In this document: piece after piece, positions 1,449-21,756 of the stretch
Position numbering within the stretch: the first letter of the stretch is position 1
Layout: each line of letters starts with the position of its first letter
NCBI GenBank assembly: GCA_009694135.1
Contig: SHVS01000004.1
Span: 1-64,000, forward strand
From: Alphaproteobacteria bacterium
GTDB taxonomy: Bacteria; Pseudomonadota; Alphaproteobacteria; UBA6615
Length of the DNA stretch: 64,000 bases
Direction: 5' to 3'
Translations under genes and position numbers: made by a program
Notes under the pieces: generated by a model
Seen by the model: the letters and a program-made list of their open reading frames with translations, nothing else
What the model was told of the DNA's origin: nothing
The model's database searches: none

Positions 1449-2297
1449 CTAGGCTGCGCTGCCGGCGGCCTGCGGAGTCCGGCGGATCGCTCCCCGCTGC
1501 GGGTCGTAGCCGTAGGCGGCGAACAGGAAGAACACGACGCCGCTGCCGACCACCACGGCCAGGGCCGTGCCATTGAGCTTTCCATAAGCCGCGTAGCGAA
1601 TGAGTTCGATGGCATAGGTGAACGGGTTGGCAAGCGCCAGCAAGTAGATGATCTCCGCGCCGGATTCGCGCAGTTTCCAAAGCGGGTAAAGCGCCGGCGA
1701 GATAAAGAACATCGGGAAGATGACGAAGTTCATCGTTCCGGCGAAGTTTTCCAGCTGCTGCACATAAACCGAGAGCAACAGTCCGACCGCGCCGAGCATC
1801 AATCCGCCGAGCACGATCGCCGGAAACATATACAGCCAGCCGCTCCACGGCACGGTGACATCGGTCCACGGCAGGATCCAAGTCATCACCAGGCAGGCGG
1901 CAAGGAAGGCATAGGCCTGGAGCGTGGACAGCAGCGTGCCGGCGATCAGCTTGCATAGCAGCAGGTACCAGCGCGGCAGGGGCGCGGTGAGCAGCAAGCG
2001 CATCACGCCCATCTCGCGATCATAGACCATCGACAGCGACGACTGCATGCCCTGGAACAGGAGCACGATCCCGAGCAACCCGGGAAGCACATAGATTTGA
2101 TACGTGATGTAGGTGTCGTAGGGTTCGATGATCGAGACGCCGAACACATTCTGGAAGCCGGCGGCGAACACAAGCATCCAGAGCGCCGGACGCACCAAGG
2201 CGGAGGCCATGCGTCCGAACTGGTGGACGAACTTGATCACCTCGCGCCCGGTGACGGCATAAAGGGCGCTGAGAGCGTGCCGCGGCGACGGAAGCAT
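1449..2297 (-). CDS. ABC-2 type transporter permease, PQQ/lanthanide-cluster type (PedC/LutF-like)
   Basis: The protein has 282 residues with about six hydrophobic segments in ABC-2 arrangement, including the conserved stretch after the second span (YDREMGVMRLLLTAPLPRWY) and the late FFISPALYPLW and LANPFTYAIELIRY motifs. It resembles the permease found beside PQQ-dependent alcohol dehydrogenases (PedC family) and LutF of lanthanide uptake clusters. No ATPase is adjacent. The likely partner is the ATPase at 9436-10224, some 7 kb away on the opposite strand, so this transporter appears split across the locus. A related NodJ/export-type permease is the alternative; family membership is fairly clear, substrate is not. 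Confidence 0.8.
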   Translation of the reverse strand: MLPSPRHALSALYAVTGREVIKFVHQFGRMASALVRPALWMLVFAAGFQNVFGVSIIEPYDTYITYQIYVLPGLLGIVLLFQGMQSSLSMVYDREMGVMRLLLTAPLPRWYLLLCKLIAGTLLSTLQAYAFLAACLVMTWILPWTDVTVPWSGWLYMFPAIVLGGLMLGAVGLLLSVYVQQLENFAGTMNFVIFPMFFISPALYPLWKLRESGAEIIYLLALANPFTYAIELIRYAAYGKLNGTALAVVVGSGVVFFLFAAYGYDPQRGAIRRTPQAAGSAA

Positions 2298-3512: not shown

Positions 3513-4742
3513 CTACATCCGACATTGAGTCTCAAGCTTGTCGATGCCAAGCGTGTCGAGATCGTTGGTCGCATGGGCAAAGCCGCGCATCGGCAGGCGC
3601 TCGATTTCCGCATTGTCGGTTACGGCGAGCAGCGGCTGACGGAGTTGTCCGTCCCAGGGGCGGAAGGTCGCCACCGCGCCCTTGACGCTATCGAGCTTCA
3701 TCTCGTCGCTGCGAATGTGCGCGGCGACTTTCTGCCAATCGACGGATTTGGTCCGCAGGATTCCTTGGCCGAGTGCGCGCACCGCGACCCAGGCGCCCCA
3801 ATCGTAGCCGGTCATGCGCCGCTTATGGAGGCGCTCGAAGCGGCTGTTGAGCTGCGGCGCGCCCTGGCGCTCCCAGGCCCAGTGCCAAGCATCGGTGATC
3901 AGCCCGGCGCTGCCCACGACCGGACGCGGCTTGCTGACGTTGAACGGAACGTAGCGGGCGAACTCGCCATCGGTATCGATGACGATCACGACGTCATAGT
4001 CCCTGCGGATTGAGGTCATCAACGTGACGTTATTCGCCTCGCGGATGCGCTGGTCGTTGCTCAGGACGAAGTCTTTTTTCTCGACGATGCGCGCGCCGAA
4101 TTTCTTGATCGAGCGCTCATAGGCCGCGCCAAGTTTTCGGTCATCGGGCAAGGTGCCTTGCAGCAAGAATATATTGGTCCATTTGCGCGAAACCAGCGTC
4201 TGCATCATGGCGTCGGCCAGCATCGCGTAGCTCGGGATCGTATGCAGCATATTGGCTTGGCAATTAGTGGCGCGCAGGTCGTCATCCGCTGCCGTGGTAT
4301 TGATCAGTAGCAGATCCTTGCGGCCCTTGAGCACCTTGGCCACTTCGCGCATCACATCGCCCGGCACGTCGACCAGAAAGATATGGATGTCCTTGTCCTT
4401 GACCCAGGCGTCAGCCGTCTGGGCCAAATCAGCTGCACCGGCGCCCTGATAGCGTTCGGCGGCGACGTTGAGGCCGGTCGCGCGCGCCTGGCCGCTAATT
4501 TCGGCGATCGCGACTTCGACGCCATCATAGGCACGTCCCAGAGCCCGGAGCTGGATGCGCGCATAGGCCTTGTCATTGTCGAGACGCGGATCGTCCGCCA
4601 ACTCAAGAAAGCCAAAACGCAGCGTTTGGATCTGAACTTCGAGCGGACGCGGCGCCGGAGCATCCGGAGCCGGGGCTGGTTGCGCCAGCGCGGGGAAGGC
4701 GAGCGCGCAGCCAAGCGAAATGGCGGCGAAGGCTTTCAACAT
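3513..4742 (-). CDS. ABC transporter periplasmic binding protein, PQQ-alcohol dehydrogenase / lanthanide-cluster type
   Basis: The protein has 409 residues: signal peptide (MLKAFAAISLGCALAFPALAQ), a Pro/Ala-rich linker, then a two-lobed type I periplasmic binding fold (VEVAIAEISGQARATGLNV, DKDIHIFLVDVPGDVMREV, KWTNIFLLQGTLPDDRKLG, DYDVVIVIDTDGEFARYVPF). This matches the substrate-binding family of PQQ-dependent alcohol dehydrogenase systems, which includes LutA/PedA-like proteins. The ATG at 4742 has GGAG 7 bases upstream and begins directly with the signal peptide; an ATG at 4769 would overlap the preceding stop. It follows the beta-propeller gene closely. Lanthanide or metal-chelate binding is inferred from related clusters, not visible in the residues. 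Confidence 0.8.
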   Translation of the reverse strand: MLKAFAAISLGCALAFPALAQPAPAPDAPAPRPLEVQIQTLRFGFLELADDPRLDNDKAYARIQLRALGRAYDGVEVAIAEISGQARATGLNVAAERYQGAGAADLAQTADAWVKDKDIHIFLVDVPGDVMREVAKVLKGRKDLLLINTTAADDDLRATNCQANMLHTIPSYAMLADAMMQTLVSRKWTNIFLLQGTLPDDRKLGAAYERSIKKFGARIVEKKDFVLSNDQRIREANNVTLMTSIRRDYDVVIVIDTDGEFARYVPFNVSKPRPVVGSAGLITDAWHWAWERQGAPQLNSRFERLHKRRMTGYDWGAWVAVRALGQGILRTKSVDWQKVAAHIRSDEMKLDSVKGAVATFRPWDGQLRQPLLAVTDNAEIERLPMRGFAHATNDLDTLGIDKLETQCRM

Positions 4743-4765
4743 CGCTCTGCTCCGCTGATGTGCTG

Positions 4766-5770
4766 TCAATCGTCGATCAGAACGGCATACGGAATGCGGC
4801 CCACCTGCACCGACTTGATTGATTTGCGCGCGATATTATCGACGACGGTGATGTCGTCCGACAATCCGTTGGCGACATAGAGCGTCTTTTCGTCCCGCGA
4901 CAGGGTGACATTCCAGGCGCGCGATCCGACCAGCACATAGGCATCGATCTTGCGCGACTTCACATCGACATAGGCGATATGATTGGCGCGGCCGAGCGCG
5001 ATCACGCATTTCGACCCATCCTGATTCATGAGGATGCCGACCGGGGTGACATCGACCTGACGAAATCCGGGCGGCAGGAAGGTCATTACCTGGAGGATCT
5101 TGAGTGTTACGCGGTCGATCACATAAATCTCGCCCGACAACTCGCAGGTGACCCACAATTCCTTGCCATCGGGGGTGAGCCAGAAACGACGCGGGCGCGT
5201 GCCGACGACGATATTATCGGTGACGAAGCCGCCCTTGACGTCGACAACATGCACCATGTCCGCGACCTCGGAGGTGACATAAATCGTCTTCTCGTCCGGT
5301 GAGAGGATCACGCCTTCCGGTTCGGCGCCGGTCGGCACGTCATGGATGATGATCTTCTCTTTCAGATCGATGATCGACAGCGAGGAGTCTTCCTCGTTGG
5401 ACACATAGATCTGGGTTTCCGTTGAGTTGAGGCGGAAGGCTTCTGGGCTCGGGCTGGTTGGAATCTGGTCGACGACCGCGAGCTTGGCGATGTCGATAAT
5501 GTCGATCACATCGTCATCGCCGCAGGCGGCGTAAAGCAGCGTGCGCGCCTTGTTGAAATGGATGTCGCGCGGCCGGCGCGAGGTCTTGATCTTCTTCACG
5601 ATCTCGAGCGTGCCGGGTTTGAGCACCCAGATATCGTGGGTCTTTTCATGGCTGACGAAAATCAGCCCGCTGTTGGCGGCGCGCGCCGGCTGCACCGGCG
5701 CGAGCGCGGCCGCGACCGTGCCGCCAAGCAACAGCGCCGAAGCCTGCCGCCGTGTGAATTTAATGCTCAT
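4766..5770 (-). CDS. exported YVTN-type beta-propeller protein of PQQ-dependent catabolism clusters
   Basis: The protein has 334 residues. A twin-arginine-like leader (FTRRQASALLLGGTVAAAL, ending near ARA) precedes about seven beta-propeller blades carrying variants of the YVTN repeat (LLYAACGDDDVIDIIDI, QIYVSNEEDSSLSIIDL, TIYVTSEVADMVHVVDV, ELWVTCELSGEIYVIDR, TLYVANGLSDDITVVDN). Single propellers of this type are regular companions of PQQ-dependent alcohol dehydrogenases and lanthanide uptake genes. A scaffolding or ligand-handling role in the periplasm is inferred; no catalytic residues can be named. The binding protein gene starts 23 bases after its stop, so the two are likely co-transcribed. 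Confidence 0.85.
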   Translation of the reverse strand: MSIKFTRRQASALLLGGTVAAALAPVQPARAANSGLIFVSHEKTHDIWVLKPGTLEIVKKIKTSRRPRDIHFNKARTLLYAACGDDDVIDIIDIAKLAVVDQIPTSPSPEAFRLNSTETQIYVSNEEDSSLSIIDLKEKIIIHDVPTGAEPEGVILSPDEKTIYVTSEVADMVHVVDVKGGFVTDNIVVGTRPRRFWLTPDGKELWVTCELSGEIYVIDRVTLKILQVMTFLPPGFRQVDVTPVGILMNQDGSKCVIALGRANHIAYVDVKSRKIDAYVLVGSRAWNVTLSRDEKTLYVANGLSDDITVVDNIARKSIKSVQVGRIPYAVLIDD

Positions 5771-5834: not shown

Positions 5835-6257
5835 CTATTTGACCACGAATTTGCCGATCATGCCTTTGTTCTCGAAGCCAGCGGCGTAGAACGAATATTC
5901 GCCGGGCCGGATCGGAACGAATTGCACCCGGGCGATGCCGGGGTCGTCGAATTCGATACCGAAAATGGCGCCGAGCGCGTGCACCTCGATGCCATTGATG
6001 ACCACCTGCTCCAGCCAGGAGTTGCGGAACAACAGCGGCGCCTCAATGCGGAATTCTTCGCCGCCCTTGCTCTCGATCGTCCAGAAATAGTACTTGCCGG
6101 TTTCGAGACGGTACTCCTTCTGCGAAAAGGACAGGTCGCCGGCGATCACCAACGGCTCAAGACGGTTGGCGCGCGAGGCGAGATTGCCTTCGGCCTGTGT
6201 CGGCGCCGATGCCAACAGCCCGGCAGCGCATGCAAATGCGAAGAGCCGTGAAAGCAT
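5835..6257 (-). CDS. exported cupredoxin-like protein lacking canonical copper ligands
   Basis: The protein has 140 residues with a signal peptide (MLSRLFAFACAAGLLASAPTQA). The rest looks like a single beta-sandwich ending in PGEYSFYAAGFENKGMIGKFVVK-like sequence (residues 118-140). This is the layout of a cupredoxin C-terminal loop, but the expected Cys and His are replaced by Tyr/Ala and Phe, and only the GM...G end is kept. The start at 6257 follows GGGAGGAAC, a strong binding site. It is the first gene of a minus-strand series (5835 down to about 1449) divergent from the ABC operon at 6748. A redox-inactive binding or chaperone role is a guess. Confidence 0.65.
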   Translation of the reverse strand: MLSRLFAFACAAGLLASAPTQAEGNLASRANRLEPLVIAGDLSFSQKEYRLETGKYYFWTIESKGGEEFRIEAPLLFRNSWLEQVVINGIEVHALGAIFGIEFDDPGIARVQFVPIRPGEYSFYAAGFENKGMIGKFVVK

Positions 6258-6496
6258 GGTCGGGTTCCTCCCTTGTTGGCCGCGCGGCACGGGCCGTACC
6301 CAGGCGCCGTATTCCTTGGCCTGTCGCGCGCACTCTATATGCCAGGAGCGGCCCTCGGCTGCAATCGAGTCGTGGGGTGGAGGATGCACGGTGCTTCCTC
6401 TACCGGGCTTTTTCCAAGGAAACGTCGCCCTTTGGCGCGTAGCTCCTTAGGCTGCAGTTGTTGGAAGTGATAGCGCTCGCCAGCTGCCCGGAGGCA

Positions 6497-6747: not shown

Positions 6748-7758
6748 ATGATGCTTCGCCGTAGCGTGCTGTCGCACGTCGTCGCTCTCGCCATGCTTGG
6801 CGGGGCAACGCTTGTCGGCGGACTGGTCGCAACGCCCGCCCTTGCCCTGGACAAGATCCGGGTCGGCGTACTCGCGACCGGCACCGCCAAATGGGAAATG
6901 GATACTATCATCCGCAATAAGCTGGCCGAGAAATTCGGACTCGAGCTAGAGCTCGTTGACCTCGGCACCAAGCTGACCCAGGTGATCGCGCTCGAGAGCC
7001 AGGCCGCCGATGTCGTTCTTACTGACTACCTGTTTACCTCGGCGCAACGTAACCAGAAGGCCGATTATACTTTCGTGCCGAGTTCGCGCGCAGCGGGCGG
7101 ATTGATCGCACGTCCTGAGTCGGGTATCACCAAGGTGGCCGATCTCAAGGGCAAGCGCATCGGCATCTTCGGCGGGCCGGACGAAGACAATTTTGTCATC
7201 TTCCGCGCCTATCTCAAAAAAGTCGCCAATATCGACGTCGAGAAAGACGTCAAAATTTCCTTCGTTGGCGGCGCGCCGCTGTTGAACGAAACGATCTTGA
7301 AAGGCGATCTCGACGCGGTCATCAATATGTGGAACTTCAACGCGCGGCTGCGCGCGGTGGGGTACAAGGACGTTGTTTCCATGCCGGAGATGCTGGCCGC
7401 GCTCGGCGTGTCCGCGCCGCCGCCGCTGCTCGGCTGGGTGTTCAGCGAGAAATGGGCCAAGGCCAATCCGAAACTGATCGATGGCTTCCTCAAGGCTTCG
7501 CTCGAAGCGAAAAAGATTCTGCTCACCAATGACGACAACTGGAAGGCGATGCAGGGGTTGATGGGAGCTCAGGGCAACGACGCCTTGTTCATCGCTCTGC
7601 GTGACGCCTATCGCGCCGGCATCGCCAAGAGCTATGGCAAGGCCGAAGTGGATGCGGCGCAAGCGATTTACAGCGTCGTGCGCAAGGAATCCGGCAATAA
7701 GGGCCCGGAAACGCTCGCTCCAGGGACATTCTGGTCCGGGATCACGTTTAACCTCTAG
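6748..7758 (+). CDS. NitT/TauT-type ABC transporter substrate-binding protein
   Basis: The protein has 336 residues with a long signal peptide ending near ATPALA (about residue 33). The mature domain is an NMT1/SsuA-like type II binding fold: KIRVGVLATGTAKWEMDTI at the start, ADVVLTDYLFTSAQR, VADLKGKRIGIFGG as the linker-strand motif, and LDAVINMWNFNARL. GAGGAGG lies upstream of the ATG. Permease and ATPase genes follow with overlaps, making a complete importer. Family members bind nitrate, taurine, sulfonates, thiamine precursors and similar small organics; the ligand here cannot be read from sequence. Neighbours suggest a role linked to PQQ-dependent oxidation or metal acquisition. Confidence 0.85.
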   Translation: MMLRRSVLSHVVALAMLGGATLVGGLVATPALALDKIRVGVLATGTAKWEMDTIIRNKLAEKFGLELELVDLGTKLTQVIALESQAADVVLTDYLFTSAQRNQKADYTFVPSSRAAGGLIARPESGITKVADLKGKRIGIFGGPDEDNFVIFRAYLKKVANIDVEKDVKISFVGGAPLLNETILKGDLDAVINMWNFNARLRAVGYKDVVSMPEMLAALGVSAPPPLLGWVFSEKWAKANPKLIDGFLKASLEAKKILLTNDDNWKAMQGLMGAQGNDALFIALRDAYRAGIAKSYGKAEVDAAQAIYSVVRKESGNKGPETLAPGTFWSGITFNL

Positions 7759-8654
7759 TGGTTGCAAGCGGCATCACACGCGTGCAGGGCGGGGACCGCA
7801 TCAAGCGGTCCCCGCCCCTTCCGCGGTCTATTCCCGCCGCCGCGTGGCGGTTGTTGTCGTTCTTTTCGTTTTTCGGGGTTTGGTGGCTGGCGGCCAACCC
7901 GTGGAAACCTCTGGCCAGCGCGCGCGTGTTGCCGTCTCCGTTGACGGTCGCCGAGGCATTCTGGGTACACGCCTACGAGAATTTGCGAACGCTCGATTGG
8001 AGCTTTGCGCTTTTTGGCAATGACATCGATCTGGTCTTCCAAATACCCGTCCTGATTCACGCCGTTGGCGTCACGCTCGGTCGGGTCGCGATCTCCTTCG
8101 TCATCGCCATGATTTTGGGAACCATTGGCGGCATCCTCATGGGGCGATGGGGGAAGGTCGATTTCGCCTTGGACGGCTGGCTGATGATGGGTCTCAATAT
8201 GCCGGCGTTGATCATCGGCATGCTGAGCTTCGTCTGGTTCGGGCTGAACGACACCGCGCTGATCATCGCGGTGATCATCAATAAGGTTCCGACGGTGGCG
8301 GTCACCGTGCGTGAAGGCGCCCGCGCGGTCGAGCGCGACCTGATGCAGGTGGCGCGCGCCTTCCGCCTCTCCTGGCAGAAGACCTTGTTCAAAGTCTATC
8401 TGCCGCAGCTCTATCCGTTCATCATGGCGGCCGGGCGTTCCGGCCTGGCGCTGCTATGGAAAATTATTCTGGTGTATGAGTTGCTCGGTCGATCGAGCGG
8501 CGTCGGCTATCAGCTGAGCACTTACTTCTCCATGTTTGAAATCAAGAGCGTGCTTGCCTATGCCTTTTCTTTCATGGCGGTGGTGATCCTGATCGAGATT
8601 CTGCTGGTGCGCCGGCTGGAGCGCCGCATGACCCGCTGGCGGATGGCAAGTTGA
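7758..8654 (+). CDS. NitT/TauT-type ABC transporter permease
   Basis: The protein has 298 residues in the BPD-type permease fold: an early span (LLSFFSFFGVWWLAA), several further spans, and a clear EAA loop (EGARAVERDLMQVARAF, then PQLYPF) that contacts the ATPase. The GTG at 7758 overlaps the preceding TAG by one base, with no binding site of its own, so translation may be coupled; a TTG near 7849 is a possible alternative. A perfect 12-bp stem with a 5-base loop falls inside the first 20 codons (7788-7816), a place where a folded message would lower expression relative to the binding protein. Confidence 0.85.
   Translation: MVASGITRVQGGDRIKRSPPLPRSIPAAAWRLLSFFSFFGVWWLAANPWKPLASARVLPSPLTVAEAFWVHAYENLRTLDWSFALFGNDIDLVFQIPVLIHAVGVTLGRVAISFVIAMILGTIGGILMGRWGKVDFALDGWLMMGLNMPALIIGMLSFVWFGLNDTALIIAVIINKVPTVAVTVREGARAVERDLMQVARAFRLSWQKTLFKVYLPQLYPFIMAAGRSGLALLWKIILVYELLGRSSGVGYQLSTYFSMFEIKSVLAYAFSFMAVVILIEILLVRRLERRMTRWRMAS
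7788..7816 (+). promoter_or_regulatory. perfect 12-bp stem-loop at the binding-protein/permease junction
   Basis: GGCGGGGACCGC (7788-7799) and its exact complement GCGGTCCCCGCC (7805-7816) flank a five-base loop. It starts 30 bases after the binding-protein stop codon and is not followed by a T run. Such structures in ABC operons protect the upstream binding-protein message and reduce downstream expression; that role here is inference. Confidence 0.6.
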
Positions 8655-9445
8655 ACGTCCTCGACGTCAATATTGTTGAGAAGCAGTTTCCGGCTCCGCA
8701 GGGAGACGGATCCGTGCTCGCCTTGCGCGGCGTCAAATTCAGCATGCCGACCGGGCAATTCATGTGCGTTGTCGGTCCGTCCGGCTGCGGCAAGACCACG
8801 CTGATGCACCTGACCAGTGCGCTCGATGCTGATTTCGACGGCTCGATCACGGTCGCCGGCAAGCCGCCGGGCGAGGGGCCGGCGCTCGGCTATATGTTTC
8901 AGTCGCCCCGGCTGATGAACTGGCTGTCGGTGCTCGACAATGTGCGCTTGGTCGCTTCGCCCGAGGCGCTGGCGGCGGGACGGCCCGAGCGCCTGCTGAA
9001 CGATATGCGCTTGGGCGACTTCCTGCACACCTTTCCCAATCGCCTGTCCGGCGGCATGCAACGACGTGTCGCCTTGGCGCGCGCCTTCGTGAATGAAGCG
9101 CCGCTGTTGCTGCTCGACGAACCGTTCATCTCGCTCGACGAGCCGGTGGCCGATATGCTGCGCTCGCTGCTGCTGCAGTTGTGGAGCGAGAGCCAGTCGA
9201 GTGTGCTGTTTGTTACGCATGATCTGCGCGAGGCGCTGTTCCTGGCCGACCGGGTGCTCTTCATGTCGCCGAGCCCTGGGCGGGTGGTGCTCGATATGGC
9301 GATCGATCTGCCGCGGCCGCGCGACGCCAAAGGCCCCGCGCTTGAGTCGCTGCGGCGCAAGCTGCTCGCCGAACATCCCTCGCTGTTGGCTGGTCTGGCC
9401 GGGGCGGCTGAACAGCCCAAGCAAGAAGCGCCAGCATGGTCCTAG
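8651..9445 (+). CDS. NitT/TauT-type ABC transporter ATP-binding protein
   Basis: The protein has 264 residues with all nucleotide-binding motifs: Walker A GPSGCGKTT, Q-loop MFQSPRL, signature LSGGMQRR, Walker B LLLLDEPFISLD, and switch His in FVTHD. The start is the TTG of TTGA, overlapping the permease stop by four bases, so the two are translationally coupled. It is most similar in pattern to SsuB/TauB ATPases and completes the importer with the two preceding genes. Its 3' end overlaps the start of the next ATPase gene. Confidence 0.88.
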   Translation: MNVLDVNIVEKQFPAPQGDGSVLALRGVKFSMPTGQFMCVVGPSGCGKTTLMHLTSALDADFDGSITVAGKPPGEGPALGYMFQSPRLMNWLSVLDNVRLVASPEALAAGRPERLLNDMRLGDFLHTFPNRLSGGMQRRVALARAFVNEAPLLLLDEPFISLDEPVADMLRSLLLQLWSESQSSVLFVTHDLREALFLADRVLFMSPSPGRVVLDMAIDLPRPRDAKGPALESLRRKLLAEHPSLLAGLAGAAEQPKQEAPAWS

Positions 9446-10224
9446 CCTTGGCCGAAAATCCGCAAGCGGCTGGCGGCGACATGCCCGTGCTTAAGGTCGA
9501 AGGCGTGGTCAAATCCTATGGTCGCACGCGGGCGCTCGACGGCGCCAGTCTCGACCTGCGAATCGGCGAATTCGTAGTGCTGCTTGGCCCGAACGGCGCC
9601 GGAAAATCGACACTGTTTCAACTTTTGACTGGCCTGTTTGTCCCCGACGAAGGGTCGATTTCGATCATGGGGCATGATATGCGCCGCGCACCGGTACCGG
9701 CGCTCGCCCATCTCGGCATCGTGTTCCAGCAATCAACGCTCGACCCGGAACTGACTGTCTCCGCCAATCTATGGTTTCACACACGGTTGCAGGGGATGGA
9801 CAGCAAACGGGCCGCCACGCGCATCGCCGAAGAGCTTGCACGCGTGGAATTGACGGCGCGCGCCAATGACCGGGTACGTACCCTGTCCGGCGGAAACAAG
9901 CGCCGGGTCGAGTTGGCCCGTGCGCTGCTGCACGATCCGTCGATCCTGTTGATGGACGAGCCGACGGTGGGACTCGATGCCGCCCGGCGACGCGACATGC
10001 TCAATAATGTCTTGCGGCTCAGACAGGAACGGCGTGTCGGCATTCTGTGGTCGACCCACTTGGTCGACGAGGCGCAACTCGCCGATCGGATTGTCGTGCT
10101 GCATCACGGTAAGGTGTTGCGCAACACGACCCCGACCGGGCTGATCAAGGAGACTGGGACCAAGACTCTGTCGGATGCGTTCCTGAAAATGACCGCCGAT
10201 ACAAACGGGCTCGACGAAGTCTAG
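9436..10224 (+). CDS. ABC transporter ATPase of the PQQ/lanthanide-cluster type (LutE/PedB-like)
   Basis: The protein has 262 residues with Walker A GPNGAGKST, Q-loop VFQQSTLD, signature LSGGNKRR, Walker B ILLMDEPTVGLD and switch His in STHLVDE. GAGKST with an LSGG(N/Q)KRR signature is the ABC-2/DrrA-type pattern, unlike the importer ATPase just upstream, and matches the ATPase family tied to PQQ-dependent alcohol dehydrogenase systems. Its natural partner is the ABC-2 permease at 1449-2297. The ATG at 9436 overlaps the previous gene by 10 bases; an internal ATG at 9481 begins the conserved domain and may be the true start. It ends in a 4-base convergent overlap with the membrane module. Confidence 0.82.
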   Translation: MVLALAENPQAAGGDMPVLKVEGVVKSYGRTRALDGASLDLRIGEFVVLLGPNGAGKSTLFQLLTGLFVPDEGSISIMGHDMRRAPVPALAHLGIVFQQSTLDPELTVSANLWFHTRLQGMDSKRAATRIAEELARVELTARANDRVRTLSGGNKRRVELARALLHDPSILLMDEPTVGLDAARRRDMLNNVLRLRQERRVGILWSTHLVDEAQLADRIVVLHHGKVLRNTTPTGLIKETGTKTLSDAFLKMTADTNGLDEV

Positions 10225-10904
10225 CGTATCGGCGCAGCGCCCGGGCCGGGGCGTCGTGCGCCCGCCGGCGGGATAACACCGCCAGCTGGTCCGGCGCCGG
10301 GATTGGCCATGGGGGCCGGGCCGCCAGGGCGGTCGTTGAGGCCTGGCACTACTTCAAGCAGGACTTCGACGGCGCGTTCGGTAAAGTTTTCCGGGCGCAA
10401 CGCGTTGACACGCTGCGCGCCCCGCGCCTGCGCATCGAGGAGTGCGTCGGCTGATGACGCGGCGACGTCGATCAGGCGCGCGTAGCCGGCGACCGCTTTG
10501 CCTTGGCGCATGAGCGCCTGCGCGGAAACGATCTGCTCGGACAGCGCGAGCGTATAAGGCACACGAAAGGCGCGCGGCTCGCCGAGCGGTTCGTCGCCGG
10601 CGCCGAGCGCTACAATCCACATGAAGACCGAGCCATCGATATTATAGAACTTGTTCGGTTCGGCGACTGAGGCCCACAAAAACTCGAACCGGCCGGGAAG
10701 CTGATCCTTGGTCGGCCAACCGATCAGCCCGGTCACCGACGCATAAGACTGGACGAAAAACAGCGTCGTGGCGACGATCGCCACGCCCTTGATCCACCAC
10801 AGCCAGCGCGACGCGACGTTCACGCTCAGCAGCAGCACGGCCAGCAGGATATAGGCGGTGACGACGCCGAGGAGGCCAAGTGTCAATTGCGATGGTTCGT
10901 CCAC
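10221..10904 (-). CDS. membrane protein of unknown function, paralogue B of a tandem pair
   Basis: The protein has 227 residues. Two hydrophobic spans near the N-terminus (LGLLGVVTAYILLAVLLLSV and IKGVAIVATTLFFVQSYASV) are joined by SRWLWWIK. A conserved segment (GWPTKDQLPGRFEFLWASV, then VFMWIVAL) follows, then a helical part and a Pro/Gly/Ala-rich tail. It closely parallels the upstream gene at 10942-11541, so the two arose by tandem duplication. GTG start with AGGAG 6 bases upstream. It is the last gene of the four-gene unit that starts at 12970. I do not recognise the family. The tail differs strongly from its paralogue, suggesting different partners. Confidence 0.7.
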   Translation of the reverse strand: MDEPSQLTLGLLGVVTAYILLAVLLLSVNVASRWLWWIKGVAIVATTLFFVQSYASVTGLIGWPTKDQLPGRFEFLWASVAEPNKFYNIDGSVFMWIVALGAGDEPLGEPRAFRVPYTLALSEQIVSAQALMRQGKAVAGYARLIDVAASSADALLDAQARGAQRVNALRPENFTERAVEVLLEVVPGLNDRPGGPAPMANPGAGPAGGVIPPAGARRPGPGAAPIR

Positions 10905-10941
10905 TGACTACTCCTCTTACGCCGCCGGAGAACAAGCACTC

Positions 10942-11541
10942 TTAGAAGGGAGCCTTTTCCGGCTGCACAATATCTGGCATATCCTGGAAACTCACATCCA
11001 GAAGCTCGGTGACGAAATTATTCGCCCCTTCGCCGACTTGGCGATCGCCTTCGCGCCGTTCCTGGTTTTCCTCGGCTTGGCGTGAGTCCTCATCCGACCG
11101 ATCTTCGGCCATTTCCGCGGTGCCGGCGACTTCCTTGCCGTCCTTGATTTTGTCCTGCGCCTTGGTGAGCTGGTCCTTGAGCGACTTGGAATAGGCCAAG
11201 CGGTAATTACGCGGTGTCCCCATGGGCACGTTATTGGCATCCAACTGCTCGACCCACATGTAGATGGCGCCGGGGAAGCTGGTGAATTCGTCCGGCTCAA
11301 CGATTTTCGCCCAGTGTAGCTGGAAATGCGGCGGCAGCCGGTCACGCGAGGGCCAACCAACGAGCGAGCTGACGGCGGCATAAGACTGTACGAAAAACAG
11401 AGTGGTCACCACGATCGTGCCAGCCTTGATCCACCACAGCCAGCGCGAGCCAACATTCAGGCTCAGCAGGGCGACGGCTACCACGACATAGGCGGCCACG
11501 ACACCGAGCAGTCCGAAGGATAGCTGTGATACCAGGTTCAC
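10942..11541 (-). CDS. membrane protein of unknown function, paralogue A of a tandem pair
   Basis: The protein has 199 residues with the same two-span N-terminal layout as its neighbour (LLGVVAAYVVVAVALLSLNV, SRWLWWIK, IVVTTLFFVQSYAAV), then GWPSRDRLPPHFQLHWAKIVEP, IYMWVEQL, and a strongly charged, probably coiled-coil tail (KDQLTKAQDKIKDGKEV through QAEENQERREGDRQ). The C-terminus is extra-membrane. GTG start after GGGAGG. It follows the YfaP-like gene by 39 bases. No described family is recognised; duplication with divergent tails implies two related subunits of one complex. Confidence 0.7.
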   Translation of the reverse strand: MNLVSQLSFGLLGVVAAYVVVAVALLSLNVGSRWLWWIKAGTIVVTTLFFVQSYAAVSSLVGWPSRDRLPPHFQLHWAKIVEPDEFTSFPGAIYMWVEQLDANNVPMGTPRNYRLAYSKSLKDQLTKAQDKIKDGKEVAGTAEMAEDRSDEDSRQAEENQERREGDRQVGEGANNFVTELLDVSFQDMPDIVQPEKAPF

Positions 11542-11580
11542 GCCCGCCTCCCGTCGTATCCGGCAGCGGCCACCATCGGC

Positions 11581-12201
11581 CTATTTCGCCCGCCGTGTCA
11601 GGCGAACGAGCGAAATCTCACGCGTGTTCACGTCCTTCACCGATCCATCGTCGGCGACGGTGAACCGCACCGCGGTCTTTTCGTCGCCGCGGTGGTCGAG
11701 TTGCAACGTGGCGTAATACACGACGATGACCTGCGGATTGATTTTTTCTACCTTGACCGACACCGGCACCGGGTCTGTCCCGGTGGCGAGGTAATGATTG
11801 ACGTTGACGACGTATTCGCCCGCCTGAAAACCGCGCACGGCGGCGATCTCCTGATTCAACGGGTTGGTTACTTTCTCGCCATTGACCAGGATCGTATCGC
11901 GATACATGCCGCGGTCATCGCGGTCGAGATGCATCAGCCCGGCTTCCCGGGCGTTGTACCAGACGATCTGCCCGGACGGATCCTGGACATAGGTATCAAT
12001 GTCGTCGGGATGATTATCGGGCCAGGTGACGGTGACGATGAACTCCGCCTTGGCGTCGATCTTGCCGGTCTTTTCCTCAGGGTTGATCATCATAAAGGTG
12101 ATGATGAACATCATCGCGACGACGGACAGCACCTTGAAGAGCACGGCCACGAACGGGCCGACGCTCTCCTCCTCGCGGGCGTAGAGTCTATACTGATCCA
12201 T
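11581..12201 (-). CDS. single-span membrane protein with YfaP/DUF2135-like periplasmic domain, in ExbD position
   Basis: The protein has 206 residues. After a short cytoplasmic stretch, residues about 16-38 form one membrane span (PFVAVLFKVLSVVAMMF), and the rest is a beta-rich periplasmic domain with WPDNHPDDIDTYVQDPSGQ and AGEYVVNVNHYL, resembling YfaP/DUF2135 domains. Its topology and its place directly after a TolQ/ExbB-like gene (14-base overlap) match ExbD/TolR, but the span has Ala where ExbD/TolR carry the proton-binding Asp (P-L-I-D-V becomes P-F-V-A-V) and a Lys four residues later. The ATG at 12201 has GAGG upstream. A force- or signal-transmitting partner of the channel protein is inferred. 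Confidence 0.7.
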   Translation of the reverse strand: MDQYRLYAREEESVGPFVAVLFKVLSVVAMMFIITFMMINPEEKTGKIDAKAEFIVTVTWPDNHPDDIDTYVQDPSGQIVWYNAREAGLMHLDRDDRGMYRDTILVNGEKVTNPLNQEIAAVRGFQAGEYVVNVNHYLATGTDPVPVSVKVEKINPQVIVVYYATLQLDHRGDEKTAVRFTVADDGSVKDVNTREISLVRLTRRAK

Positions 12202-12970
12202 GCTCGCCTCGGTCGAGCACCGGAACCACATAGATCTCGGTCAGTTCCGTTGTCATGCCGAACAGTCCAGCAGTGGAGTCATCGACGAAGTAGTACTGCA
12301 TCTTGATGAGAATGGCGGCCACCAGCCCTGCCAGAGTGGTGTACAGAGCGATGCCCATGCCGGTGCTCATCGAGGTGAGTACGCCGCGCATCGAGCCGAT
12401 GCTGAAGTCCGTCAGTTCATTCAGCGGCACGAGCATGTAGATGAACCCGACGATTGTGCCCAAGAGCCCGAGCTTGAGTTCAAGATCGGCGGCGAAAATT
12501 CCTAGAGCTTGTTTGCTGCGCAATCTATCGGCGAGCGATCGCAGCAGCGGCGTTTGATCGATTGTCTTGCTGCCGGCGCAGCTCATCTTGACCGCGATAT
12601 TGCGAATGTGATCGGTGACGACGCAGGGCAGGAGTTCGCTGCTATCCGAAAGCAATACGCGATCGCCGACGACGCGGAAACTCTTCGTGCCGCGCATGAT
12701 CTGCTCGCGCACGCGGTGCACTGCGTTCACTTCGCGCGACACTTCCAGCGTGATCGCCAGGCAGTGCAGGGAGGTTATCGCATAAACGGCAAGAATGATG
12801 ACCGAGATGTAGCTGATGTCGCTCGCGATCATCAGTTGCATCAGGTTGAAGTTCCACAGGGCAAGAAAGCCGAACAGCGTCACCCCGGTGAATATCATCC
12901 ATTTGAGCAGCAGGAGATGATCGCGCACCTCAACCCCGCTACCAAAAACTCTGAGCGGCACCGTAGCCAT
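12188..12970 (-). CDS. MotA/TolQ/ExbB-like proton channel family protein
   Basis: The protein has 260 residues and four predicted spans: near residues 25-45 (WMIFTGVTLFGFLALW), 50-75 (SVIILAVYAITSLHCL), then after a cytoplasmic loop the diagnostic pair KLGLLGTIVGFIYMLVPL and GMGIALYTTLAGLVAAILI. The LLGTIVGFI and ALYTTLAGL motifs are those of the MotA/TolQ/ExbB channel family; the Thr pair corresponds to the conserved ion-path Thr. It is the first gene of a four-gene minus-strand unit. Which process it powers is unknown: no TonB, TolA or flagellar genes are nearby. Confidence 0.78.
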   Translation of the reverse strand: MATVPLRVFGSGVEVRDHLLLLKWMIFTGVTLFGFLALWNFNLMQLMIASDISYISVIILAVYAITSLHCLAITLEVSREVNAVHRVREQIMRGTKSFRVVGDRVLLSDSSELLPCVVTDHIRNIAVKMSCAGSKTIDQTPLLRSLADRLRSKQALGIFAADLELKLGLLGTIVGFIYMLVPLNELTDFSIGSMRGVLTSMSTGMGIALYTTLAGLVAAILIKMQYYFVDDSTAGLFGMTTELTEIYVVPVLDRGEHGSV

Positions 12971-13855: not shown

Positions 13856-14890
13856 TCAGGCGCTGAGCGTGAGGAGGCGTCCATCCGGGCGGGTTATCAG
13901 CGCTTGGGTTCCCGGGTATCCGGCCAGCATGCGCGCACCGGTCAGTTCATCGACAACGCAGAGCGCCGTCGACAAGCCGTCGGCCGCCGTTGCACGCGGG
14001 CTGATGACCGTGACGTCGAGGTAGCGCGCGGCGCTGTGGCCAGTCGCCGGGTCGAAGATGTGGTGGTTGCGACCGGCAGCGTCGAATTGCGTGCCGTATC
14101 CGCCCGAAACCGCCATCGCCTGATTGGTGATTCCGACTGTACGCGCAACGCGCGTCGGATCGAGAGGGTCCTTAATTCCCATGCGCCACGGACGCCCCTC
14201 AGGGTGATCACCGAGAGCGCGCGTTTCGCCAAGTTCAGCGACGACGTGCTCGAAGCCGGCGTCGCGCAGCATGTCCGCGACCCGATCGGTGATATAGCCT
14301 TGGGCGATGCCGTTGAGCGTCACGCCCATGCCGGACTGCTCGAACCGGAGCTGCTTGGCATCGATCTCGATGCGGCGATAGTCAACTAGAGCGCGCGCGG
14401 CGGCGATCTCCGACTCGGTCGGGCCGGTGGTCGCCGCCGGATTAGCAAAATAATGACGCTCGTAGGCTGTCCACAGTGGTTGCACCGTCACGTCGAAGGA
14501 GCCGCCGGAGGCATCGCCCAGCGCGACGCTCGTCGAAAGGAGATCGACCAGATCGCGGCTCGGATCGTCCAGCCGCCCGTCGCGATTGAGCCGCGACAAT
14601 TCGCTCTCCGCATCGAACAGGCTGAAAACTCGCTCAAGGCGGGCGATCTCGAGCAGACTTGCATCGATCATGCGCCGGGATAGGGCTGGGTCGGCGTGCC
14701 ACAGCGACATGCTTGCCTCGGCGCCGAGCGCCGCGCCCGTCCAGTTGACGAATTCACCGCGCGGCGCCAGCGCGTTCAGGCCGTAACCGACCAGCGGCAG
14801 GCCAGCGGCCGCCGCCGTGATGCCAAGCATGCGCCGGCGCGTCAGCGGCTTTGGACCCGAATGCGGCTTGGGAGAGGACTGCATCGCCAT
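13856..14890 (-). CDS. apbE: FAD:protein FMN transferase (ApbE family)
   Basis: The protein has 344 residues with a twin-arginine-like leader (LTRRRMLGITAAAAGLPLV). ApbE attaches FMN through a phosphoester to a Thr of target proteins in the periplasm. Visible family features include SLFDAESELSRLNRDG, GGSFDVTVQPLW, the flavin-binding stretch GVTLNGIAQGYITDRVADML, AELGETRALG, and the late TAADGLSTALCV. The start at 14890 lies 16 bases after the stop of the NosR-like gene; that protein carries a flavinylation motif and is the obvious substrate. In nitrous-oxide operons this position is held by nosX. Confidence 0.88.
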   Translation of the reverse strand: MAMQSSPKPHSGPKPLTRRRMLGITAAAAGLPLVGYGLNALAPRGEFVNWTGAALGAEASMSLWHADPALSRRMIDASLLEIARLERVFSLFDAESELSRLNRDGRLDDPSRDLVDLLSTSVALGDASGGSFDVTVQPLWTAYERHYFANPAATTGPTESEIAAARALVDYRRIEIDAKQLRFEQSGMGVTLNGIAQGYITDRVADMLRDAGFEHVVAELGETRALGDHPEGRPWRMGIKDPLDPTRVARTVGITNQAMAVSGGYGTQFDAAGRNHHIFDPATGHSAARYLDVTVISPRATAADGLSTALCVVDELTGARMLAGYPGTQALITRPDGRLLTLSA

Positions 14891-14906
14891 CGCTTGATTC
14901 CCTGCC

Positions 14907-17093
14907 TTAGATCGTAACCTGCGTGCGCGCGACCGCTGGGACCGGCATCCCACCCGGCGCCACCGGGAGGTTTTGCCGCGCCTTTTGCTTGCGGTCCTTG
15001 ACCAGCGGCGGACAGCGCTTGTCGTCATAATACTCGACCTGGCAGTCGAGGCACTGGAAGCATTCGGTCATGTTGATCTTGCCGTTATGCGCGATCGCCT
15101 TGACCGGGCAGGCGCGTTCGCACAGGTGGCACGGGCTGCCGCAGGCTTCGCGGCGCTTAAGCATGTCGAACAGGTGCAGCTTGCCGACGAAGGCCAGCAC
15201 CCCGCCGAGCGGGCAGAGGAAGCGGCAATAGGCGCGCTCCGAAAACAGCCCGATCGACAACAGCGCAAGCGAGTAAATAACGTAAGGCCATTCGCGGATG
15301 AAATGCGCAGTGATCGCCGTCTTGAACGGTTCGACCTCGGAGGCGGTTTCCGCCATCTCCATCGAATAGAAACCGATCCCGATGACAACCAGGGCGCTGG
15401 CGTATTTGCCCCACCAGAGCTTGTCCTGCAGCTTTTCGCTTGGTTGCCATTGCGGCAACCCGATGGCGCGCGCGAGTTGACCAAGCAGTTCTTGCAACGC
15501 GCCGAAGGGGCACAGCCAGCCACAAAACACGCCGCGGCCGAGCAGCACGAGCGACACCAAGGTATAGGCGACGATCACGACGATCAGCGGCTCGGCCAAA
15601 TAGAATCCAAGGCTGATGTCACCAAACGGCGCCTGGAGGTAGTTGACGATGTTGATAATCGTCAACTGTCCGCCGGCGTACCAGCCCAGCCAAACCAGGC
15701 AGAACAACAAATACCCGTTGCGCACCCACCGGTGCAGTTTGCGCCGGCGGGAAAGCGGCCCTTGCAGGGCAAGAATTACCGTCAGCACCGTCAGCATGAC
15801 GCCGAGAACGATTAGATTGGTGCGTGCGTCGCTCCAGGCGGCGATCCAGGCGGGCTCGGCCGCTTGGTCGGGCATCAGGATTAAATCGCTCGGAAGCCGG
15901 TACTCGACCGGGATGGTCAGGGACTTGGCGCCTTCGGCGTCGCTCGAGGGCACGATCAACTCGAGCCGCCAGGGCTTCATCGGGTCGAAGCCCGAGTTGC
16001 CGTCGAGGAAGAAGAGCCCGCCCTGCGACAGTCCGCGCACGCCTTCGCCCGAACCCATGGCGATGCGCTGGAAATGGTCGCGGTCGAAATGGAAAACCTT
16101 TTCGCCCTGCGCGAGCTGCAGGCGGTCGAAGGTATAGTTTTTGGCGCGCTGATTATACGCGTTGCCGAGAATGTCGAAGCGACCGGTGGATGCAAAGAAT
16201 AAGACCTGCCCGCCTTGCGCCTTGCGTGAGGCATAACTCGCAAAAGTGTTGGCGCCGAAGAGATTGCGCCCGACCATCTCGGGGGTCGAATAAGCGGCAA
16301 ACAAATGCACGAAGATATCGTCGGGAGCCGCGCTGAGCGGTTGATCGGCGGCCGGCGCTTCGGCGCCAATCGCGGCGAACAGGCGCTCGGCCTCCTCGTT
16401 GCTGACCCAGCGATGCTGCAAGGAGCCGTTGGCCAGCAATTGCTGGAACGTCAAAGGCGAAAAACCATCGATATCGAGCGTCGGCACCTTGACGACCGGC
16501 CCCATGCCGCGCGCCCGCATGACGAACTTGGCAGAATCCCTAACCCCGGCGCGCATCGCGCGCGCGGTTATCGTTGCGCCGGCGACATAATCCGGTGGCA
16601 TCTGCGGTATGTTAGCGCCGAACAGCTTGTAGCCGAGATGACTGGCGAGGAAGTGATCGAGCTTCGGCTGGCGAATGCTGTCATTCAACACATGCGGCTC
16701 GCTATGATAGATGACTTTGGCGCCGGTGATCGTCCCGGTGAGGTCGACGCCGGCCAGCACATCGAATGGCGTCGAGGAATAGCCCGGCATGTTGACGACG
16801 TCGAGCGTGGAATAAATGTAGCCGACGACTTGCCCGCCCTTGAGCACCGACATGGCCGGCGGCTTGCCGGACACTTCGCCCAGTTTCTCCGCCCCGGGAT
16901 AAAGTTGCTGCAGGATATCGGGTGCAATGCGCTGCGCGAGCGTGCGCTTCGGCGCTTGCGCCAGAGCGGGAACGCTTAGTGCGGCCAACACGGCGACAAG
17001 AGCAGCCATCCGCCCCCACCAAGCCACCGGTCGCCACGAAAAATTGCTGCGCCTATACGCTTGGCGAAACTCAGCCGCTTTTGCCCGCATCAT
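14907..17093 (-). CDS. NosR/NirI-type membrane flavo-iron-sulfur protein
   Basis: The protein has 728 residues. A signal/anchor segment near residues 29-46 leads to a periplasmic FMN-binding domain with the flavinylation motif DYVAGATIT (Thr 174 the probable FMN acceptor), then several spans and a cytoplasmic polyferredoxin end: FCGWLCPFGA and YCRFLCPLGG (CxxxCP pairs), CGSPCHLCERACP and CFQCLDCQ (two 4Fe-4S sites). This is the NosR architecture. GAGG lies 8 bases before the ATG at 17093; longer starts (17129, 17153) are possible. With no nosZ in the window, it may serve electron transfer to a periplasmic system or be part of a nos cluster elsewhere. Confidence 0.85.
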   Translation of the reverse strand: MMRAKAAEFRQAYRRSNFSWRPVAWWGRMAALVAVLAALSVPALAQAPKRTLAQRIAPDILQQLYPGAEKLGEVSGKPPAMSVLKGGQVVGYIYSTLDVVNMPGYSSTPFDVLAGVDLTGTITGAKVIYHSEPHVLNDSIRQPKLDHFLASHLGYKLFGANIPQMPPDYVAGATITARAMRAGVRDSAKFVMRARGMGPVVKVPTLDIDGFSPLTFQQLLANGSLQHRWVSNEEAERLFAAIGAEAPAADQPLSAAPDDIFVHLFAAYSTPEMVGRNLFGANTFASYASRKAQGGQVLFFASTGRFDILGNAYNQRAKNYTFDRLQLAQGEKVFHFDRDHFQRIAMGSGEGVRGLSQGGLFFLDGNSGFDPMKPWRLELIVPSSDAEGAKSLTIPVEYRLPSDLILMPDQAAEPAWIAAWSDARTNLIVLGVMLTVLTVILALQGPLSRRRKLHRWVRNGYLLFCLVWLGWYAGGQLTIINIVNYLQAPFGDISLGFYLAEPLIVVIVAYTLVSLVLLGRGVFCGWLCPFGALQELLGQLARAIGLPQWQPSEKLQDKLWWGKYASALVVIGIGFYSMEMAETASEVEPFKTAITAHFIREWPYVIYSLALLSIGLFSERAYCRFLCPLGGVLAFVGKLHLFDMLKRREACGSPCHLCERACPVKAIAHNGKINMTECFQCLDCQVEYYDDKRCPPLVKDRKQKARQNLPVAPGGMPVPAVARTQVTI

Positions 17094-17270
17094 TGTTTCA
17101 ACCTCGGGACTGCTTTGCGTCTGGAGCATGGGCAATGGCCCGATTTCGCGCAATCAACTTTTTTCGATCTCCAGCGCGCGGCCTTGGCTATCCGCAACCG
17201 CAAATTAGCGCAGTCACCGCGGGGGGACCGCGGAGTGGCGCCGCGCCCGGCCGCGAGCGAGGGTATATGG

Positions 17271-17975: not shown

Positions 17976-18092
17976 GACCGGTCCGGGCCGGGTGTTGATT
18001 CGGTCATAAACGCTGCCCTATCCTGCAGCAATTGCGGGCGGCGGCGGGGGGCGGTAGCTGTTGCCGTGGCACGCTCGGCCGAAGGAGTCGCC

Positions 18093-19118
18093 ATGGCAGC
18101 CAGCAGCGCTCGTAAACCTCATGCCGACAAGTCCGGGGGTTCGAAACCCGGGCATGCTCCGGCCGATGAATTGATTCGGCTCTACCGCATGATGCTGTTG
18201 ATTCGCCGCTTCGAGGAGAAGGCGGGACAGCTTTACGGCATGGGGCGGATCGGTGGCTTCTGCCACCTCTATATCGGGCAGGAGGCCGTGGTCGTCGGCG
18301 TGCAGGCCGCTCTCACGCCCAAGGATAGCGTGATCACCGCCTATCGCGACCACGGTCACATGCTTGCGTGCGGAATGGAACCCAAAGGCGTGATGGCCGA
18401 ACTCACCGGCCGTAGCGGCGGCTATTCGCGCGGCAAGGGTGGCTCGATGCATATGTTTTCGCGCGAGAAAAACTTTTACGGCGGCCACGGCATCGTCGGC
18501 GCCAGCGTTCCGCTCGGCACCGGGCTTGCCTTTGCGCATCAATATCGGGGCGACGGCGGCTTATGCGCGGCCTATATGGGCGATGGCGCGGCCAACCAAG
18601 GGCAGGTCTATGAGTCGTTCAACATGGCCTCGCTGTGGAAACTGCCGGTCCTTTATGTGATCGAGAACAACCGCTACGGCATGGGCACATCGATCGAGCG
18701 CGCCTCGGCGCGCACCGACTTCGCTGGCCGCGGGCATAGTTTTGGCATCCCTGGCGAGGCCGTGGACGGCATGGACCTGTTGGCCGTGCGCACCGCCACC
18801 TTGTCGGCGGTCGCCGCCATACGCGCCGGACAGGGGCCGCGTATTTTGGAGATGATGACCTACCGTTATCGCGGCCATTCGATGTCCGATCCGGCCAAGT
18901 ATCGCTCGAAGGAAGAGGTCGACAAGGTACGCGGCGAGCGCGACCCGATCGAAGGATTGAAGCACCGTCTGGTCGAGCAAGGTACGAGCGACGAGGCACG
19001 GATCAAGGACCTCGACGGCGAAGTGCGCGCGCTGGTCAATGCCGCGGCGGAGTTCGCGCAGGCGAGCCCGGAGCCGGACCCGGCCGAGCTGGCGACCGAC
19101 ATCCTGGTCGCCGCGTGA
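18093..19118 (+). CDS. pdhA: pyruvate dehydrogenase E1 component, alpha subunit
   Basis: The protein has 341 residues. With PdhB it forms the thiamine-diphosphate E1 that decarboxylates pyruvate and acetylates lipoyl groups. Visible features: [50 protein letters not shown]-like segment, and the thiamine-diphosphate/Mg motif GDGAANQG ending in ENN (about residues 160-190); the phosphorylation-loop region [11 protein letters not shown] is also present. The ATG at 18093 has GAAGGAG 6 bases upstream; a GTG at 18066 is weaker. TTGATT at 17995 and TATCCT at 18019 could be a poor promoter. It heads the pdhA-pdhB-pdhC-lpd-lipA series. Confidence 0.95.
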
Positions 19119-19146
19119 GCCACTCGGTGGAAAGGTAACCCGAGCG

Positions 19147-20478
19147 ATGCCGATCCAGGTGCTGATGCCGGCGCTGTCGCCCACGATGACCGAAGGCACG
19201 CTCGCCAAATGGCGCAAGAGTGAGGGCGAACGGATCAAAGTCGGCGATGTGATCGCCGAAGTCGAGACCGACAAGGCGACGATGGAAATCGAATCAATCG
19301 ACGATGGCGTACTCGGCCAGATCCTGGTCCCTGCCGGGACGGAGAAAATAGCCGTGAATACGCCGATTGCCGTGATCCTGGGTGACGGCGAAAAAGCGGG
19401 CGACGCGCGGCCGACCAGCAATGGCGCCGTCAAGGCGCAGCCGCCCATAACGAAGCCAGCGTTTGCGCCGGCGCGTCAGCCGGCAACCGGGGCCGCGCGC
19501 GTGCAGACTGTGCGCGAGGCCTTGCGCGACGTGATGGCCGAGGAAATGCGCCGCGATCCGAGCGTGTTTTTAATGGGCGAAGAGGTCGGCCAGTACCAAG
19601 GCGCCTATAAGGTAAGCCAGGGGCTGCTCGAAGAATTTGGGCCCAAGCGCGTGATCGACACGCCGATCACCGAACATGGCTTCGCCGGCCTGGGTGTCGG
19701 CGCTGCCTTCGCCGGGCTGAAGCCGATCGTCGAATTCATGACCTTTAACTTCGCCATGCAGGCGATCGACCACATCATCAATTCGGCCGCCAAGACGCTG
19801 TATATGTCGGGCGGGCAGATGCCGGTGCCGATCGTCTTTCGCGGCCCGAATGGCGCCGCCGCCCGCGTCGGCGCGCAGCATTCGCAATGCTTCGCGTCGT
19901 GGTACGCGCATTGCCCGGGCTTGAAGGTCATCGCGCCCTATACGGCGGCCGATGCCAAGGGACTGCTGCGGGCGGCCATCCGCGACCATAACCCGGTCGT
20001 ATTTCTGGAAAACGAAATCCTTTACGGCATGAGCTTCCCGGTGCCGGACGATCCCGAGCACATCGTGCCGATCGGCCACGCCAAGATTGTGCGCGCAGGC
20101 CAGCACGTCACCATCGCCGCGTTCTCGCTCATGGTGCACAAAGCGCTGGCCGCCGCGGAGGTTTTGGCGAAAGAGGGCATCGAGGCCGAGGTGATCGATC
20201 TGCGCACGCTCCGTCCGCTCGATACCGAGACACTGGTCGCCAGTGTAAAAAAAACCAATCACCTGGTCACCTGCGAGGAAGGCTGGCCCTTCGCCGGCAT
20301 CGGCTCCGAGATCGCGGCATTGATGATGGAGCAGGCCTTCGACTGGCTCGATGCGCCGATGGCGCGCGTCGCCGGGGCGGATGTGCCGATGCCCTATGCC
20401 GCCAATCTGGAAAAACTCGCCGTGCCACAACCCGAGCACATCATCGCCGCCGCCAAATCCGTGCTGAATCGCCGTTAG
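19147..20478 (+). CDS. pdhB: pyruvate dehydrogenase E1 component, beta subunit with N-terminal lipoyl domain
   Basis: The protein has 443 residues. Residues 1-75 are a biotinyl/lipoyl domain with lipoylation Lys 43 (ETDKATME), a linker follows, and from about residue 120 the transketolase-like E1 beta fold ([46 protein letters not shown]) with the C-terminal domain ([12 protein letters not shown]). Lipoyl-E1 beta fusion is characteristic of Alphaproteobacteria. The first 20 codons are almost identical at DNA level to the start of pdhC, so the domain was duplicated or homogenised. It follows pdhA by 28 bases. Confidence 0.96.
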
Positions 20479-20488
20479 GGGTGCACGC

Positions 20489-21745: not shown

Positions 21746-21756
21746 GCGGCCGGTCC

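Follow-up and report, generated by a model that had tools for sequence, protein, structure and literature searches.

A widely conserved three-gene membrane unit with a MotA/TolQ/ExbB-type channel in pyrroloquinoline quinone-linked loci of Proteobacteria

Introduction

The 64,000-nucleotide stretch of contig SHVS01000004.1 (assembly GCA_009694135.1, an alphaproteobacterium of the UBA6615 lineage) analysed here, which we refer to as the window, carries on its minus strand a group of four open reading frames (ORFs) headed by a channel protein of the MotA/TolQ/ExbB superfamily. A first-pass annotation, made from the letters of the window, had described these ORFs as a four-gene membrane module driven by the proton-motive force and serving a neighbouring transport locus. 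The genes are real and linked, but the conserved unit consists of three of them, a channel, a single-span rod and a two-span protein, the last of which is duplicated in the window. This three-gene unit is widely conserved, is kin to the ExbB/TolQ/MotA channels, and is strongly though not absolutely linked to enzymes that depend on pyrroloquinoline quinone (PQQ).

PQQ is made in the cytoplasm, and its route from there to the periplasm has been raised as a question still to be answered (PMC2294125). We describe here the composition, conservation and genomic setting of the unit, and weigh the roles that these observations suggest for it.

Results

Composition of the unit in the window

The four ORFs lie where they had been reported, and they are listed below with three residues that bear on the argument.

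12188..12970, minus strand: channel subunit, MotA/TolQ/ExbB superfamily, 260 amino acids, with a PF01618 match and four hydrophobic segments, T211/T212 lying in the last
12479..12481, minus strand: channel Glu164, a glutamate that no other aligned channel has at this column
11581..12201, minus strand: rod subunit, in the ExbD/TolR/MotB position, 206 amino acids, with a predicted transmembrane (TM) helix at 16-39 and a predicted periplasmic beta-sandwich
12145..12147, minus strand: rod Ala19, where 98 of 117 rods have Asp
12133..12135, minus strand: rod Lys23, at a column that is Asn in 97 of the 98 Asp-bearing rods
10942..11541, minus strand: two-span subunit copy A, 199 amino acids, with two TM segments and a predicted periplasmic alpha/beta domain
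10221..10904, minus strand: two-span subunit copy B, 227 amino acids, a tandem paralogue of copy A with a Pro/Gly-rich tail

The channel matches the Pfam family MotA_ExbB (PF01618) above its cut-off (E=1.2e-7, 32 bits against 22.9) and contains both of the motifs, LLGTIVGFI and ALYTTLAGL, on which its original assignment was based. The rod begins at an ATG at 12201, which gives the previously noted 14-base overlap with the channel gene. Hydropathy assigns four hydrophobic segments to the channel and two spans to each of the two-span paralogues, which are 42% identical; as had been anticipated, profile searches placed neither paralogue in a Pfam or NCBIfam family. The channel itself belongs to no exbB, tolQ or mot equivalog model of NCBIfam, its best matches being sub-threshold ones to ZorA and MotP (E 0.04 or worse), and it thus does not fall into any of these characterised subfamilies.

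The AlphaFold model of the rod (pLDDT 89.9) comprises one TM helix and an all-beta periplasmic domain of twelve strands, and that of the two-span protein (pLDDT 84.7) comprises two TM helices and an alpha/beta domain. Sequence and fold searches of the PDB with the rod and the two-span protein returned no confident match. The rod had been described as a single-span protein with a YfaP/DUF2135-like domain. The single span stands, but the resemblance to DUF2135 (PF09906) is weak: 10 of 60 rod relatives match, at best with E=0.0014, and the window rod is not among them. None of the 60 matches ExbD (PF02472) at E<0.1, and the literature on DUF2135/YfaP yielded nothing relevant to the unit.

Conservation of the unit among Proteobacteria

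Relatives were collected in two ways. The 20 loci that best matched the channel were taken from 289 sampled genomes of the window's class. A scan with a rod alignment found at least 519 rod relatives, and the best 80 named loci among them, of Alpha-, Beta- and Gammaproteobacteria, were examined. Loci and genomes are denoted below by L and G numbers. The rod is the best-conserved member of the unit in alignment; a scan of genome contigs with the single channel sequence found no relatives, and the rod alignment did retrieve them. Channel and rod are kept in all 20 fetched class loci and the two-span protein in 18, the others being L042, with a divergent copy, and L034, at a contig end; the grouping is thus no accident. 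The channel-rod-two-span order recurs in nearly all of about 125 loci from the three classes, a set that is partly redundant and whose genes were called mechanically as ORFs, sometimes mis-framed in GC-rich loci. Because this order recurs across the loci of relatives, we regard three genes as the core of the unit; the genes had been expected to stay adjacent in other genomes if they form a unit, and they do.

A tandem two-span pair was seen at three places only, the window, L232 and L233, and each of them combines it with an Asp-less rod that has Lys at the Asn column. A distant rod subfamily (rod E about 1e-22) carries the motif FRDV, and a tblastn search of plasmids recovered only distant Azospirillum rods. 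Four loci (L084, L085, L086 and L189) hold second rod copies that have no channel or two-span partner, three of them within loci of the Ped/Lut type, described below, of alphaproteobacterial metagenome-assembled genomes. Downstream, a DUF3108-like lipoprotein gene follows the two-span gene in many lineages (L035-L041, L079, L091, L226, L228) and is absent from the window. A VWA-TM-FHA protein is encoded directly after the unit in L095 (9128-10687) and L232 (7299-8816), and related gammaproteobacterial loci have ORFs of similar length at the same place.

The rod aspartate and its loss

The rods of ExbD, TolR and MotB use an aspartate as ion (proton) carrier. Among 117 aligned rods of the present family 98 have an aspartate at the start of the TM helix, within the motif PFxDLLFN; the other 19 have Ala (12), Val (5) or Ser (2) at this position. 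The window rod reads PFVAVLFK where the family reads PFTDLLFN and where the TolR-like protein of the same genome (contig C30) reads PFVDVML. The Asp-less set comprises the window, three loci of family f159 (L170, L174, L175), two of Rhodospirillaceae (L055, L056), three of Gammaproteobacteria (L095, L232, L233) and, for the rest, mostly Rhodobacterales-type loci (L064-L068, L071-L074, L080). On a 55-row rod tree, built without the columns of the Asp motif, the state of this residue changes at least three times, and the aspartate of the distant FRDV subfamily suggests that these changes are losses.

In the channel, the second threonine of the last TM segment is present in every aligned sequence that covers the column, 90 from Asp-bearing and 18 from Asp-less units. 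With the aspartate in 98 of 117 rods, proton-motive-force drive is plausible for the family. For the window copy, to which the first-pass annotation had attributed it, such drive is unsupported, since its rod lacks the ion-carrying aspartate.

One might ask whether an originally proton-driven complex has, in the window copy, begun to decay or become non-motile. Besides the repeated change of the aspartate state, this would fit the replacement of Asp by Ala in a rod that also lacks the acidic residue four positions upstream; that residue is kept in 18 of the 19 Asp-less rods, and the window, with Gly, is the sole such rod of the 117. The window ORFs are nevertheless intact and the periplasmic domain is conserved, and the Asp-less units of Rhodobacterales retain their full PQQ/Ped/Lut context, so such units look functional. 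In addition, the glutamate at channel position 164, which no other aligned channel shares, could compensate in the window copy. We consider decay decidedly improbable. Compensation by the upstream acidic residue in other Asp-less rods, or by Glu164 here, is speculation.

Genes around the unit

The unit faces a transport locus, whose genes are as follows.

9436..10224, plus strand: PQQ-system ATP-binding cassette (ABC) ATPase (TIGR03864, 312.9 bits, cut-off 302.25), convergent to the unit, the stop codons overlapping by 4 bases
6748..9445, plus strand: taurine/sulfonate-type ABC genes by profile matches, for a substrate-binding protein (6748-7758), a permease (7758-8654) and an ATPase (8651-9445), conserved neighbours
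5835..6389, minus strand: small exported protein of unknown function, a conserved neighbour
4766..5770, minus strand: PQQ_ABC beta-propeller, PedA2/LutB-like (TIGR03866, 300 bits, over the cut-off)
3513..4769, minus strand: PQQ_ABC substrate-binding protein, PedA1/LutA-like (TIGR03863, 394 bits, cut-off 413.6)
1449..2297, minus strand: PedC/LutF-like ABC-2 permease (TIGR03861, 343.8 bits, cut-off 241)

A Ped/Lut-type ABC system is thus present, with three of its models over their cut-offs and TIGR03863 just under, which bears out the earlier assignment of the region as a PQQ/lanthanide-type transport locus. Its layout is conserved in relatives: in many Alphaproteobacteria the unit is convergent to the PQQ_ABC ATPase and the taurine-type ABC set, as in the window, together with the small protein, propeller, binding-protein and PedC genes, and upstream there is often a PQQ dehydrogenase, a cytochrome c and a pentapeptide-repeat gene. 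In Ideonella (L091, L102) a PqqB-like gene, Ped/Lut genes, the unit and the DUF3108-like lipoprotein gene lie on one strand. Loci of Burkholderiales and relatives have pqqB-pqqC-pqqE in front of the unit; in L079, L081 and L087 the channel gene begins 1 base past the pqqE stop, and TIGR02108, TIGR02111 and TIGR02109 (NCBIfam) are over their cut-offs in L079 and L172. In L226 a PQQ_CXXCW gene (TIGR03865) lies directly upstream of the channel. Overall, PQQ dehydrogenase or Ped/Lut ABC genes occur within 8 kb in 65 of 105 loci.

The third residue of the dehydrogenase metal motif is a signature of the metal used, separating XoxF/PedH from MxaF/PedE. Dehydrogenases beside the unit carry the lanthanide-type D-x-D in the alphaproteobacterial supercluster and in Burkholderiales loci, and the calcium-type D-Y-T elsewhere, for example in PS1-clade and K189A-clade loci. 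Five genomes with such calcium-type neighbours (G018, G049, G174, G249, G270) have no propeller match, which indicates that the unit tracks PQQ enzymes and not lanthanide transport alone; a lanthanide-only function is rejected on the same ground. The expectation that the unit would accompany the ATPase and propeller genes holds for the conserved layout of many Alphaproteobacteria. The proposal that it serves the neighbouring transport system specifically is weakened by the propeller-less genomes and by the units directly behind pqqBCE.

These observations bear on a reading in which the complex energises either the uptake of lanthanide, or of a PQQ-metal pair, by the adjacent Ped/Lut ABC system or a step at the outer membrane that supplies this system. 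The clustering with Ped/Lut ABC genes, conserved in Alpha- and Betaproteobacteria, and the D-x-D of the dehydrogenases adjoining Ped/Lut-linked units agree with it, as does the experimental link of PedA1A2BC to growth at low lanthanide in Pseudomonas putida (PMC6839425). Set against them are the calcium-type dehydrogenases adjoining the unit where the propeller is absent, the fact that ABC import runs on ATP, the missing aspartate of the window copy, and the fact that no such channel is mentioned in the study of the M. extorquens AM1 lut cluster (PMC7391723) or in the papers on the ped cluster (PMC12997753, PMC6839425). We regard this reading as rather unlikely.

Beyond the unit, the window encodes at 13856-17153 (minus strand) an ApbE flavin transferase beside a NosR-like FMN-binding/4Fe-4S membrane protein that scores below the NosR cut-off; L084 and L086, both of the Ped/Lut type, likewise contain ApbE genes. 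The plus strand carries, at 18066-23160 and 30757-34468, genes of an ordinary pyruvate dehydrogenase complex and a two-component pair of the NtrY-NtrX type.

Co-occurrence with PQQ dehydrogenases

In the window's class PQQ-dependent alcohol dehydrogenase (PQQ-ADH; threshold E<1e-100) is present in 18 of 21 unit carriers and in 53 of 268 other genomes (Fisher p about 1e-9), and in the class of G513 (threshold E<=1e-40) in 17 of 23 carriers and 20 of 175 others (p about 5e-10); these tests ignore phylogeny, and the counts were tallied by hand from tables. An approximate count by family, 11 of 11 against roughly 38 of 147, points in the same direction. The window's own genome has pqqE (570 bits) and PQQ-ADH homologues, three of them with D-x-D. 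A search for PmoA in 19 carriers found none, yet the controls were equally silent.

Several observations count against a dedicated PQQ role. Six gammaproteobacterial carriers (G694, G726, G742, G774, G789, G827), of which G726 has the distant rod only, possess neither PQQ-ADH nor an above-cut-off PqqE, so PQQ is not the sole setting of the unit. Strong PQQ-ADH is found in the 53 unit-less genomes of the window's class, and for 40 of the 105 loci, some of them on short contigs, neither a PQQ-ADH nor a Ped/Lut gene lies within 8 kb. Three carriers with PQQ-ADH (G018, G049, G270) have no pqqE; a role limited to exporting self-made PQQ therefore does not fit, and we reject a function confined to strict PQQ producers.

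The six PQQ-less carriers would suit a general Tol-like envelope or force-transducing complex, for which the PQQ neighbourhood would be frequent but incidental, for example through shared regulation of periplasmic oxidation. So would the housekeeping genes that adjoin the unit in L038-L040 and L222-L224, and the VWA-TM-FHA proteins and L,D-transpeptidases among its neighbours in some Gammaproteobacteria. Such a complex would not account for the co-occurrence with PQQ-ADH in two classes, or for the operon-like way in which the unit is linked, in several lineages, to pqqBCE, to Ped/Lut genes or to PQQ-ADH. The window's genome, moreover, already has a Tol-Pal-like set: tonB, tolA, exbD and motB are absent locally, as had been stated, but on contig C30 an ExbD-family gene with its aspartate intact lies beside a MotA_ExbB gene. 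We think a general envelope function improbable. A third MotA_ExbB-type gene (L198; G000:C30, 17337-19500), with a downstream ORF whose start is MotB-like (YVDALSSL), stands apart from the Tol-Pal-like set of that contig.

Discussion

A proposed role in PQQ delivery or quinoprotein maturation

The genes around the unit speak more for PQQ delivery or quinoprotein assembly than for a role in lanthanide transport alone, and with moderate confidence we propose that the unit forms a stator-like inner-membrane complex serving PQQ delivery or quinoprotein maturation. By analogy with relatives in the superfamily, its architecture would resemble that of a 5:2 stator complex, in which a ring of four-span channel subunits encloses a pair of rod TM helices. 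On the periplasmic side the rod would bear a beta-sandwich in place of an ExbD or OmpA-like domain, and the dedicated two-span subunit would contribute an alpha/beta domain. The rod aspartate and the channel threonine pair may, in most lineages, allow a proton flow that moves the periplasmic part. The complex could deliver PQQ, alone or paired with a metal, across the inner membrane or at it, and could help to assemble dehydrogenases that depend on PQQ. Where the aspartate is gone while operon and context persist, as in the window and at least two other lineages, the complex would act as a passive or regulated scaffold or be coupled through another residue.

More tentatively, this stator-like complex may be dedicated to PQQ delivery or quinoprotein assembly with an ion-carrying carboxylate that has been repeatedly lost, and here perhaps moved to the channel as Glu164. 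Related complexes that share an operon context would then work both with and without the canonical proton carrier. Lying behind pqqE and beside PQQ dehydrogenases, the unit is a candidate for PQQ delivery or quinoprotein assembly that can be tested by knock-out, and a family in which the aspartate has been lost repeatedly is a natural setting in which to ask whether stator-like complexes require proton flow for their work.

Comparison with known systems

The unit is not described in the papers searched, which covered lut, ped and 5:2 motors and the combination of the channel with PQQ or lanthanides. In an expression study two MotA/TolQ/ExbB genes fall together with mxaFI under lanthanum (PMC6277846); these genes, MEALZ_3990/3991 of Methylomicrobium alcaliphilum 20Z, are no more than a lead to a possible further copy of the unit. 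The Ped/Lut systems (PedA1A2BC, LutABEF) share with the window their ABC genes, which here lie next to the unit, whereas the channel unit goes unmentioned in the ped and lut papers cited above.

In the GldL-GldM 5:2 motor of gliding and type IX secretion the key carboxylate, GldL Glu49, is in the channel subunit (PMC8986121), and the present unit may likewise be a stator-like pair whose key carboxylate need not be in the rod. The likeness is confined to the missing aspartate of the window rod and the unique Glu164; the unit matches no GldL or GldM family model, and GldM has a long multi-domain shaft. Zorya ZorA-ZorB shows a distant channel similarity (ZorA E 0.0036 in PADLOC and 0.042 in NCBIfam). 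The channel nevertheless lies far below the cut-offs and the rod and two-span protein match no defence model; with ZorA below its cut-off and no match to a ZorB partner, membership in Zorya is rejected.

There are also parallels with ExbB-ExbD and TolQ-TolR, which likewise pair a PF01618 channel, with a threonine pair in its last TM segment, with the product of an adjacent gene, a single-span partner that has, in most members of the unit, an aspartate near the start of its TM helix. Membership in ExbBD/TolQR is nonetheless rejected on the partner family, the periplasmic fold and, for the window, the aspartate: the rod has no PF02472 match, its predicted beta-sandwich is unlike the alpha/beta periplasmic fold of the ExbD type, and the aspartate is missing from 19 of 117 rods, that of the window included. 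Unlike these systems, the unit has a constant third, two-span subunit and a PQQ gene context.

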